Below, piece after piece: positions 50,340-54,633 of a stretch of DNA of 64,000 nucleotides. The stretch lies in assembly GCF_000177635.2 (NCBI RefSeq), contig NC_014836.1:62001-126000 (forward strand), in the 5' to 3' direction. The stretch is from Desulfurispirillum indicum S5. Lineage in GTDB: Bacteria > Chrysiogenota > Chrysiogenetes > Chrysiogenales > Chrysiogenaceae. The translations under genes and the position numbers were made by a program. Positions within the stretch are counted from its first letter, which is position 1; each line of letters starts with the position of its first letter. The notes below the pieces were generated by a model. The model searched no databases. It worked only from the letters and a program-made list of their open reading frames with translations, and was not told the origin of the DNA.

Positions 50340-51404
50340 TCAGAAAAGTTCCAGCTCTCCCCCATCTTCCTCATGCCCCTCAAGTTTGTTGCATATCTGT
50401 TCAATATTGCTCATCAGGGCGTCGTCGAGGTAGTGGATATCAACAGCATCGCCGTCCACAAAGATATGGGTGGTGAATTTCTGGATATCCTCGGCCAGGC
50501 TTTCGAGCATGCTGGCCAGAATGCTCACATGGTTGTGGTCGAGGTTTTCGGTGTCAATGGCCTCAATGCTGATGACCAGCTTATGCAGGGCGTCTGCTAT
50601 GGCGGAAAAGCGCATGAAACGGTCGAAGATCACCCGGTAGCTTTCGAATATCTCCAGGAAATCATCGCGCATCTCCATAGTGAATCCTTCGACGATCATG
50701 GTGCTGATGATGGAGTCCAGGCTGGCACCCAGTTCCATCATCTCATCGATGTCCTCCAGGGCGCTCTCCCAGTCCTTGGGATCACTTTTGAGCTCTTCAA
50801 TGAAGTGCAGGGCCGAGACTTTGCCGGCCTTGAAGCTGTTGATGGCCTCATCCTGTCGCTTCTTCAGTTCTTCCTGGCTGATCTGGCTGACCTGTTCCAT
50901 GGCCCGATCATAGGAGCTTGTCTTGCGTGGGCGCGTCGCGATCTGGCTGCGCAGCGATTCGATGTACTTTTTGGCCCGCAGCAGTTCAAACTGCTTGCGA
51001 TGGACGATGAACTCCGATGCGCGTAACAGGACACTGGCCAGCTGGTGGGTCTTGACGGGCTTGAGGATAAATCCATCGATGCCGATGTTGATGAGTTCGA
51101 TAAAGTACTCGGTCTCATGGTGGGCGGAGATCACAACGATCTTCTGCTCGGGGTCCATGGACTTGATGGCCTGGCTCAGCTCAATGCCGTTCATGCGAGG
51201 CATGCGAATGTCAGTTATGACAATATCGTAGCCGTCGTTTTTGCGGTAGAGCTCCAGGGCATCCTGCCCGTCCCTGGCCACATCGACTTTCAGGAAGAAT
51301 TTCCCCAGCAGTTCGCCAAGCTGGCGGCCGAGGATCTCTTCATCTTCAGCGATGAGAATGCTCTGTTTGGCGGCAAAGACTTCCAGTTGCTTGATGGTCT
51401 TCAT
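50340..51404 (-). CDS. Response regulator with unusual helical output domain
   Basis: 354 residues. The start overlaps the kinase stop by 4 nt. A receiver (about 14-130) with ED (20-21), phosphorylation Asp65 (ITDIRMPRM), Ser93 and Lys115. The rest (about 130-354) is predicted all-helical and acidic (EELKKRQDEAINSF, EDIDEMMELGASL, ESYRVIFDRFMRFSAI, ends HEEDGGELELF) with no DNA-binding, GGDEF or HD motif that I can recognise. It is the evident partner of the adjacent hybrid-fold kinase. The output is probably a protein-protein interaction, in some respects like the histidine-phosphotransfer or helical partner-switch proteins; unknown. Confidence 0.82.
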   Translation of the reverse strand: MKTIKQLEVFAAKQSILIAEDEEILGRQLGELLGKFFLKVDVARDGQDALELYRKNDGYDIVITDIRMPRMNGIELSQAIKSMDPEQKIVVISAHHETEYFIELINIGIDGFILKPVKTHQLASVLLRASEFIVHRKQFELLRAKKYIESLRSQIATRPRKTSSYDRAMEQVSQISQEELKKRQDEAINSFKAGKVSALHFIEELKSDPKDWESALEDIDEMMELGASLDSIISTMIVEGFTMEMRDDFLEIFESYRVIFDRFMRFSAIADALHKLVISIEAIDTENLDHNHVSILASMLESLAEDIQKFTTHIFVDGDAVDIHYLDDALMSNIEQICNKLEGHEEDGGELELF

Positions 51405-53374
51405 GGAGTGCTCCTGTTGCGGTGAAAGCGCAATTGAAATACGGCTCCGCCAGCACTGTTGCGGGCATGGATGGAGCCGTGATTGTGTTCTTCCATAATG
51501 ACCTTGGACATGTAGAGCCCAAGGCCTGTTCCATTCTTGTTTTCCTTGGTGCTGAAATAGGGATCAAAGATCAGGGGCAGAAACTTTTCGGGAATGCCTC
51601 CGCCGTTGTCTTCTATTTCCAGACAGAGCTCCCCATCCTCCACCGAATCACGGAAAGTCACAACGGGATTTTCAACAGATCGTTCAGAAAGGACATCAAA
51701 GGCGTTTTTCAGGATATTGACAATAACCTGAATGATTTCATTGGTGTGAACATTGACGGGCTCCCTGGTGGCGGTCAAATTCTGCAGGACGATACTGTTG
51801 CGGGCGAACAGATGACCCATCAGGGCCAGGCAGCGGCTGACCAGATCCGGTATGGGAATATCTTCCCGCGAGGAGGTGGGGCGGAAAAAGTTGCGGAAGT
51901 CTTCAATGACCCGTGAAAGGTAGTCGGTCTGCTGTTCAATATCGGTGACAGCTACGTTGATGTCCTTTTCGGTGAGAATACCCATCTGCTGGTAGGTGTC
52001 CAGGGTGCCAACGGCCATGGAGATGGCTGAGAGGGGCTGGCGCCACTGGTGGGCAATCATGGAGAGCATTTCCCCCATAATGGCGTGACGGGATTGCTGC
52101 AGAATCAGGGCATTCTGTTTGCGGTTTTTTTCCAGCTCCTCCTGAACCCGCTCTTCCAGGTGGCGGTTCAGGGATGCCAGCTTCTGTTCCGCTTTCCACT
52201 GGCGGGTCCAGTCGCGACTGACGGTGACAATGCCGATCACCTGACCGCTGTGGCTGCGCAACAGTGATGTGCTGGAGATAAAGCGTCGCATTTCCTCGGG
52301 GTTATCGTCCTTCCACGACCAGCCCAAAGACGCCTCGGGCTGTTGACGAGCCAATACCTTCTCTTCAAACAAGCGAAAGAATCGGGCATAGGTTGGCTCA
52401 AAGAGGTCCTCGTCGCTCTTGTCGACAATATCTTCTGTGCTGAGCCCGACAAAGTCGGCGAAAGCTTTGTTGCAGCCGATGTAGCGAAGCTGGCAATCCT
52501 TGTAGAAAATGAGATCCGACACCGAATTGGTGACAATGTCCAGCAGGGCCGCCTGCTGGGTAACTTCCTGCTCCAGCTGGTGGGACTTCTCCAGGGCCTG
52601 CTCCAGGTGCTTGCGCTCCACCACTTCACCATAGGTCTCCAGGGCGGCCTGGATGCTCTTTTTGCTGAGCAGCGCGGCCATGGCCTCCATGCCCGAGGTG
52701 AGCGCGGCAATGTCGGTTGCGGTGATCACGGGGCCGCGATTGGGCAGGATGGTTTGTACTGTCAGGCTCTGGATACGACTCAGTGCCAGCCCGAGCAACT
52801 GACTGTTGGGTATGGCCTGAGAGTGATACTGGGCAATGGCTTCGAAATCGTCTTCATGGTGCAGAATTCCTGCACTCAGGGTGTTGCCGAAGAGTTCCCC
52901 GGAGAAGAGCAGCCCCTTTTCGGGAAAGCAGGTCACAAAGGAGCCGGGGCAGGGACAGTAGGGCGTCGGAATAAAGTGGCAGAGAAAGCCGGGTCGCGAA
53001 AGCTGAAAGTTGCGCTGATCAATGGGGTAGATGGAGGAGCGTACCCCCATCTGCCGCAGGCTGTCCGCCATCTGCCCCTGGGTGACGATGAGCAGATCGT
53101 CGCGCCCAATGCGTTTTTCCAGGTAGGGCAAAGCTCCACACGCCTCTGGAAGGGCACTGTTTACCACTATATAGCGGATCCGTTCCAGGGGGAAATCCCG
53201 GCGGATGCGCTCAAAATCCTCTTCCTGTCCAAGGGTTCCCCCGGGATTGAACAGGACGCTTTCGTGCTGGTTTTCCAGCCAGTAGGTGCGACTGTGGGGC
53301 TTCTGCCGCATGCGCACCAGAAAGACGTCGGAAGCTATGCTGACAGGGAGGCCCTGACTGAAGCTGGAGTGCAT
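51401..53374 (-). CDS. Histidine kinase with degenerate flavodiiron/MBL-like N-terminus and PAS
   Basis: 657 residues from the ATG at 53374 (GAGG upstream). Residues 1-250 follow the metallo-beta-lactamase/ODP fold of flavodiiron proteins (FNPGG, RYIVVNSALPEACGALPYL, TPYCPCPGSFVTCFPEKGLLFSGELFG, ILPNRGPVI), but every metal-ligand position I can align is changed: NSALPEACG for NHVEPDHSG, CPCPGS for the His site, and PNRG for PSHG. A PAS domain (about 275-390), HisKA with AHQWRQPLSA (His442) and HATPase (about 540-650) follow. It is cytosolic. The MBL domain may sense a ligand without metal, or fold as a dimerisation module. Divergent from lrgAB and coupled to the response regulator. Confidence 0.82.
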   Translation of the reverse strand: MHSSFSQGLPVSIASDVFLVRMRQKPHSRTYWLENQHESVLFNPGGTLGQEEDFERIRRDFPLERIRYIVVNSALPEACGALPYLEKRIGRDDLLIVTQGQMADSLRQMGVRSSIYPIDQRNFQLSRPGFLCHFIPTPYCPCPGSFVTCFPEKGLLFSGELFGNTLSAGILHHEDDFEAIAQYHSQAIPNSQLLGLALSRIQSLTVQTILPNRGPVITATDIAALTSGMEAMAALLSKKSIQAALETYGEVVERKHLEQALEKSHQLEQEVTQQAALLDIVTNSVSDLIFYKDCQLRYIGCNKAFADFVGLSTEDIVDKSDEDLFEPTYARFFRLFEEKVLARQQPEASLGWSWKDDNPEEMRRFISSTSLLRSHSGQVIGIVTVSRDWTRQWKAEQKLASLNRHLEERVQEELEKNRKQNALILQQSRHAIMGEMLSMIAHQWRQPLSAISMAVGTLDTYQQMGILTEKDINVAVTDIEQQTDYLSRVIEDFRNFFRPTSSREDIPIPDLVSRCLALMGHLFARNSIVLQNLTATREPVNVHTNEIIQVIVNILKNAFDVLSERSVENPVVTFRDSVEDGELCLEIEDNGGGIPEKFLPLIFDPYFSTKENKNGTGLGLYMSKVIMEEHNHGSIHARNSAGGAVFQLRFHRNRSTP

Positions 53375-53569
53375 AATGAATCCTCGGGCAGGGAAAATCA
53401 TGGTCGCGCAAAGTCGACACCTGATATACTCTTTATATGTACGCCATGAAATACATTGCGTCAATTCCTCTTGCCCAACGAAATCGGTAATAATTATTCC
53501 TGATTTTATAGGGGCAGGTGTTGACGCCCCAAGGTGCGTATCGTTACATTTCATTTCTGGAGGGGGCCT

Positions 53570-53935
53570 ATGCTGGGTGGCATACTCTTGATACTGTTTT
53601 GTCAATTGGGAGGGGAAGTACTGGTTCGTTCCCTGGGGCTGCCGTTGCCCGGGCCGGTGGCTGGCATGGTGCTGCTGCTGGGTGTGGTTATTGTCTATCG
53701 CGATGTTCCGGCCACCCTGCGCAGTGCCACTGACGGGCTGCTGCGCTATCTTGCCCTGCTCTTTGTGCCCATTGCCGTGACAGGAATCATGGCGCACCGG
53801 GTCTTTATGTATGAAATCTGGTTTCCCCTGACCGTGGCCATTCTCGGCAGCACCATCCTGGGCATTATCACGACCGCCCTGGTTTTTCGCCTGCTGATGC
53901 GACGCCAGCAGCGCTCCGGGAGGTCAGCGTCATGA
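53570..53935 (+). CDS. lrgA: LrgA/CidA family membrane protein
   Basis: 121 residues from the ATG at 53570 with GGAGG upstream; longer frames are not supported. Four membrane helices (LGGILLILFCQLGGEVL, GPVAGMVLLLGVVIVYR, LALLFVPIAVTGIMAHR, ILGSTILGIITTALVFRLL). LrgA/CidA proteins are holin-like; LrgAB in Bacillus and Streptococcus has pyruvate transport activity. The motif PLPGPVAGMVLLL fits the family. It overlaps lrgB by 4 nt (ATGA). Confidence 0.88.
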   Translation: MLGGILLILFCQLGGEVLVRSLGLPLPGPVAGMVLLLGVVIVYRDVPATLRSATDGLLRYLALLFVPIAVTGIMAHRVFMYEIWFPLTVAILGSTILGIITTALVFRLLMRRQQRSGRSAS

Positions 53936-54633
53936 TGGAATGGGTGCTCGAAAGCTCGCTGCTGTGGCTGGGCATTACCATTACGGCCTTCTTACTGGGC
54001 AGCTGGCTCAATATCAAAGCCAGGCGAAATGCCCTGGTTAATCCGGCGCTGATCAGCATTTTTCTCGTCTGCGTTGCCCTGGTGGCCACGGGGGTTTCCC
54101 ATGAGGAGTACTTCGCCTCCGTCTCCCTGATCCACTTTCTGCTGGGGCCTGCCACGGTGGCTTTGGCCATTCCCCTGTACGACCAGTTTGCCCAGATACG
54201 CCGCCTGCTGGTGCCCATCATGGTGGCCTGCCTGTGTGGCCTGACCGTCTGCGCCGTTTCAGCGGTGGCCATCGGCATGTATTTTGATCAGTCCCGGGAG
54301 CTGCTGATTTCTCTGGCGCCAAAATCGGTTACCACCCCGATTGCCATGGGCATCAGCGAAACCCTTGGTGGTCTTGGATCACTGACCGCGGCTCTGGTTA
54401 TTATCACGGGCGTCTCCGGCAGTATTGTGGGGCCGCTGGTGCTGAAGCTGATCCGGGAGAAAGACGAGAATACCCAGGGCTTCACCATGGGTCTGGTGGC
54501 CCACGGCTTTGGAACTGCTTACGCTTTCAGCATCAGCCCTGCGGCCGGAGCTTTTGCTGGTCTGGCCATGGGATTGACAGGCCTTTTCAGCGCTTTCTTG
54601 CTGCCACTGTTTTTACAGTTGATGGGAGTGTGA
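53932..54633 (+). CDS. lrgB: LrgB family membrane protein
   Basis: 233 residues, about six to seven membrane helices. LrgB features: NPALISIFLVCVALV, SVSLIHFLLGPATVALAIPLYDQF, LAPKSVTTPIAMGISETLGG, KDENTQGFTMGLVAHGFGTAYAF. It pairs with LrgA and may move pyruvate or modulate murein hydrolases; the pairing with a kinase-regulator couple upstream recalls the LytST-lrgAB arrangement, though this kinase is not LytS. Confidence 0.9.
   Translation: MMEWVLESSLLWLGITITAFLLGSWLNIKARRNALVNPALISIFLVCVALVATGVSHEEYFASVSLIHFLLGPATVALAIPLYDQFAQIRRLLVPIMVACLCGLTVCAVSAVAIGMYFDQSRELLISLAPKSVTTPIAMGISETLGGLGSLTAALVIITGVSGSIVGPLVLKLIREKDENTQGFTMGLVAHGFGTAYAFSISPAAGAFAGLAMGLTGLFSAFLLPLFLQLMGV

Follow-up and report, generated by a model that had tools for sequence, protein, structure and literature searches.

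Can a sensor kinase keep a flavodiiron-like input domain after the metal ligands of that domain have gone, and what would such a domain then do? The question is raised by a histidine kinase gene of Desulfurispirillum indicum S5T, a member of the Chrysiogenetes that lives as an obligate anaerobe (PMC3368425). The gene lies within the 64,000-nucleotide stretch of DNA analysed here, which is referred to as the window (NC_014836.1, positions 62,001 to 126,000). The oxygen-binding diiron protein (ODP) of Treponema denticola, a chemotaxis sensor, binds diiron and senses O2 (PMC7666581), and the cyanobacterial Flv1/Flv2 have flavodiiron cores that lack the canonical diiron ligands (PMC4390876). Ligand-less flavodiiron domains and ODPs in signalling are already known from these cases, and what is new here is that a sensor kinase carries an ODP without its ligands. 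The literature searched, which leaves out most subscription journals, yielded no paper on histidine kinases with an ODP domain, whether the ligands are intact or not.

Domain layout and fold of the kinase

The gene (51401..53374, minus strand, as are all features of the kinase given below) encodes a sensor histidine kinase of 657 aa, recognised from its translation, from Pfam and from a 64% identical ortholog (L003) that belongs to a second genus of the family. From the N to the C terminus, Pfam and the translation give an ODP domain, a linker, a PAS domain, HisKA and HATPase. The ODP domain, which has the metallo-beta-lactamase (MBL) fold and is without canonical metal ligands, covers residues 15-232 (52679..53332), as delimited by Pfam, the structural model, Foldseek and the alignment, and is joined to the PAS domain by a conserved linker (residues 233-280, 52535..52678) that is 71% identical to that of the ortholog. 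The PAS domain, which we propose as the present sensor, spans residues 281-405 (52160..52534; PAS_4, 44.1 bits); no relative of it was found in the PDB by sequence. The HisKA dimerisation and phosphoacceptor domain (51875..52078) is 87% identical to its counterpart in the ortholog and is followed by HATPase_c (51419..51757), and the H-, N-, D- and G-boxes are all present in the translation (AHQWRQPL, NILKNAFD, DNGGG and GTGLGL). The protein is not a flavodiiron protein by Pfam, since PAS and kinase domains, rather than a C-terminal flavodoxin-like domain, come after the ODP.

The Pfam ODP family (PF19583) matched residues 29-214 with 75.1 bits, the cut-off being 27.2, over profile positions 4-194 of 194, while ODP kinases with intact ligands reached 185-212 bits. 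The relatives of the domain in the PDB, by sequence alone, were flavodiiron proteins (E = 6e-5 and weaker). An AlphaFold2 model, built from a shallow alignment of four sequences (the window domain and three relatives), had a mean pLDDT of 73.5 and a pTM of 0.79; its strands and helices follow one another as in the MBL fold, and Foldseek placed it with flavodiiron and ODP cores (E about 1e-11 to 1e-12, TM about 0.7). An earlier note on this DNA had read an MBL/ODP fold into the N-terminal region and had suggested structure prediction against ODP and flavodiiron folds as the check, with a non-MBL fold as the outcome that would speak against it; the model did not give such a fold, and Pfam, AlphaFold2 and Foldseek together bear the assignment out.

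The ligand-less Flv1 core (6h0c) ranked first in Foldseek and the ODP chemotaxis sensor (6qrq) close behind. Flv1/Flv2 (6h0c, 6h0d), the top structural match, share a ligand-less flavodiiron-type core with the window domain, but they are electron-transfer enzymes with flavin-binding domains rather than sensor kinases, and the loss of ligands was presumably independent in the two cases. The T. denticola ODP (6qrq, 6qwo and 6r9n), also among the best structural matches, has the same MBL-type ODP fold in a signalling protein, whereas the window domain has lost the ligands and forms part of a histidine kinase with a PAS domain.

Loss of the metal ligands and its ancestry

The ligand positions were examined in an alignment of 78 rows, namely the window protein, the ortholog and 76 others, of which L073 and L166 are one protein entered twice, leaving 75 distinct other loci. 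The rows were the best matches of searches through 385 genomes with a profile of the two orthologs, through a class of the Campylobacterota with a three-sequence profile, and through two further phyla. The six ligand columns read H-D-D-H-D-H in 74 rows, and the remaining two rows outside the ortholog pair have a single change each, one with Asn at the third column and the other, a flavodiiron protein, with Glu at the second. In the window protein the columns read S-L-E-P-E-R, without the diiron set H-x-D/E-x-D, H, D, H, and in the ortholog Q-T-E-H-E-C; only in these two of the 78 rows has the set been lost.

By alignment, the former H-x-D-x-D loop is now S73-A-L75-P-E77 (53144..53158), the former His ligand of the C-H-x-P loop is P141 (52952..52954; His in the ortholog), the former bridging Asp of the S-D-L/I-F-G loop is E160 (52895..52897), and the former His of the P-Q-H-G loop is R213 (52736..52738; Cys in the ortholog). 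The motifs quoted in the earlier note (NSALPEACG, CPCPGS, GELFG and PNRG) do align with the four metal-ligand loops, and its statement that all ligand positions are changed was correct, though two of the six changes, common to both orthologs, are conservative replacements of Asp by Glu. When a smaller alignment was tested, the 34 conserved columns outside the ligand positions were kept at 19 places in the window protein, against none of the six ligands (Fisher p = 0.02), and at 20 places in the ortholog, against one ligand of six (p = 0.08), with both tests taking alignment columns as independent.

As the loss is also present in the ortholog, with other residues at four of the six columns, it is inherited, and no replacement set of ligands has been conserved. 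The only His or Cys residues identical in both proteins are C140 and H184, each being the commonest residue at its position in intact ODPs, and so they do not amount to a newly gained His/Cys cluster. Metal binding by other residues had been named beforehand as a result that would overturn the reading of a lost site, and the alignment holds no conserved His/Cys set in place of the ligands. Judged by sequence, the view that an MBL/ODP scaffold has lost its metal site while the kinase still looks intact is thus supported. The Glu residues at two former Asp columns in both proteins, together with the one His kept in the ortholog, leave room for a weak or altered site, at which a metal, perhaps a single ion, would still be bound through E77, E160 and other residues. 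We consider this unlikely, as the window protein has neither His nor Cys at any ligand column and the shared C140 and H184 are just what intact ODPs have there.

Further searches for ligand-less members gave none in the two additional phyla, and a scan of a species-level genome collection with the ligand-less pair returned no match. A six-sequence alignment yielded no usable search pattern, and a three-sequence alignment used as the query recovered three Campylobacterota loci.

The ancestry of the pair was examined in a tree of ODP domains from which the ligand columns were omitted and the most distant (longest) flavodiiron rows were removed. The pair formed a group with 100/100 support and was placed among the ODPs of histidine kinases with intact ligands (99/93), and its nearest neighbour was the ODP-GAF-HK-REC-REC protein L065 of the family member G001 (93/61). 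Its stem is very long, at 1.9 changes per column, and in a tree that kept the distant flavodiiron rows the pair branched off deeper, again with a long stem, which we read as long-branch attraction. As the placement varies with the distant rows, the exact place of the pair is less certain than the loss of its ligands. Since every sampled flavodiiron or ODP relative has the ligands, secondary loss is the simplest reading.

L065 resembles the window protein in being an ODP histidine kinase of the same bacterial family, but its ligands are intact and it is a hybrid kinase with a GAF domain and two receivers. The ODP kinases of Campylobacterota (L085, L086 and L092-L114) fall in the same clade of the tree and likewise have an N-terminal ODP, HisKA/HATPase and an adjacent regulator; they differ in having all ligands intact and in being compact, with no PAS domain detectable in the five that were scanned. 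With an intact relative in the same family and many in Campylobacterota, the loss of the metal site makes a natural experiment in sensor evolution.

Fusions of metal-intact ODPs to GGDEF domains were also seen in relatives of the phylum and in others (L038-L044, L048, L049, L051, L053 and L056), and in some genomes to domains that appeared, by eye, to be nucleotide-cyclase-like, which suggests that the ODP is a widely reused input domain.

Constraint on the domain and its possible roles

Identity between the window protein and the ortholog was 52-54% in the ODP, 67% in the PAS domain and 70% in the kinase. The order was the opposite in Campylobacterota ODP kinases with intact ligands, where the ODP was the better conserved of the two parts in all 276 pairs, by a median of 21.5 points, the pairs being drawn from 24 related sequences and so not independent. 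The dN/dS of the ODP between the orthologs was 0.165 (Nei-Gojobori), with dS saturated. Within the domain, identity was lowest near the former PQHG loop and R213 (30%) and highest at residues 105-134 (70-75%). The open frame and the low dN/dS, together with an ODP identity below that of the kinase, indicate that the domain has been kept and that its strongest constraint is gone, a comparison that covers the two known ligand-less sequences. An ODP that is decaying and contributes nothing would agree with the long stem and with the conservation reduced relative to the kinase; we consider it very unlikely, given an open frame, 54% identity across two genera and a dN/dS well below 1.

Purifying selection on the ODP in two genera could also mean that the emptied site binds another ligand, for example an organic acid or other anion, and that the domain is still a sensor. 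The two Glu replacements and the FSGELFG loop common to both orthologs agree with this, as do the well-conserved residues 105-134. A common new ligand would, however, predict a shared pocket, and the two orthologs have unlike residues at the other four positions that once bound the metal, while the loop of R213 is among the least conserved parts of the domain. This explanation is possible, though we think it doubtful. We likewise hold it to be rather improbable that the metal-free ODP is a re-purposed sensor, in which the former diiron/O2 pocket would recognise another ligand or partner and drive a two-component system in strict anaerobes. The earlier note had offered a new sensor class, a ligand trap or a dimerisation module. 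As the residues now standing at the ligand positions vary from one ortholog to the other and the ODP is less constrained than the kinase, the first two are weakly supported, and a scaffold or dimerisation role fits better.

Another arrangement would pair the ligand-less domain with an ODP or flavodiiron protein that still has its ligands, on the model put forward for the cyanobacterial Flv2/Flv4 (PMC4390876), and a canonical flavodiiron protein is indeed encoded in this genome. On the chromosome map used, some 0.96 Mb separate its gene from that of the kinase, and no intact ODP signalling protein was found when looked for in this genome; we give such a heterodimer hardly any credence.

The reading that we favour, with moderate confidence, is that the ODP, having lost its diiron site, has been retained as a scaffold or relay, that the PAS domain takes the input and that the regulator receives the phosphoryl signal. 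The ancestor would have been an ODP histidine kinase that sensed O2 or the redox state through a diiron site, and the ligands would have been lost in the strict-anaerobe lineage that led to this species and to one other genus of the family. The retained, presumably metal-free ODP may help to set the kinase dimer, and the PAS domain, lying between the ODP and the kinase, most likely takes the input now. The cytoplasmic kinase would then pass its phosphoryl group to the receiver protein encoded next to it, whose helical output is probably not DNA-binding.

We dropped the idea of the PAS domain as a mark of the ligand-less pair alone, as a weak PAS-like match was found in L115, a longer ODP kinase with intact ligands. 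PAS and an intact ODP can therefore coexist, and the presence of a PAS domain is by itself no sign that the ODP was replaced as the sensor.

The window kinase may be of use, as a metal-free counterpart, in tests of how ODP domains communicate with kinases. It also calls for caution, as O2 or NO sensing does not follow from an ODP or flavodiiron annotation alone.

The gene neighbourhood and the partner regulator

The lrgA and lrgB genes (53534-54633, plus strand) sit between the kinase and an lpd-like gene, and the kinase is divergent from lrgAB, as the earlier note had described for the window. The link to lrgAB did not hold beyond it. At the ortholog locus, which keeps the regulator and, on the far side, the lpd-like gene, the latter directly adjoins the kinase, and no lrgB was found in the genome of the ortholog; lrgAB was therefore either gained here or lost there. 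Among the family members, lrgB is present in the genome of the window and was found in neither G001 nor G002, and we rejected lrgAB as a conserved partner and regard it as a local neighbour.

The divergent arrangement of some Sulfurovum-type ODP kinases and ilvB prompted the question of a functional link to ilvBN. Such a link was rejected, as ilvN and the regulator are convergent in the window, most other Campylobacterota copies have no ilvBN nearby, and no match was found around the ortholog. In the Sulfurovum-type genomes themselves (L085, L086, L123, L125, L131, L132 and L133), an intact ODP kinase and its winged-helix regulator are divergent from ilvB and ilvN, the genes of acetolactate synthase; the other Campylobacterota copies are without this arrangement.

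The partner response regulator (50340..51404, minus strand) has 354 aa, with a receiver (Response_reg, 93.8 bits) and a helical C-terminal module, and its gene overlaps that of the kinase by 4 bases. Kinase and regulator have been kept together at the ortholog locus, where they are 64% and 69% identical, respectively. Pfam gave no DNA-binding domain in the regulator, and its helical module differs from the winged-helix output of the regulator of the Sulfurovum ODP kinase. The odd helical output claimed for this regulator is correct for the window but is not unique to it, as the module recurs in the genome, where two more proteins match it, and in relatives.

The module (50340-50957, minus strand) is also seen in receiver proteins of the phylum of about 330-540 aa (L142-L150). 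It has no Pfam name and is marked by a DIHYLD-type motif and by a conserved acidic tail with a hydrophobic end (ELELF, DLDIFF or DIEFF).
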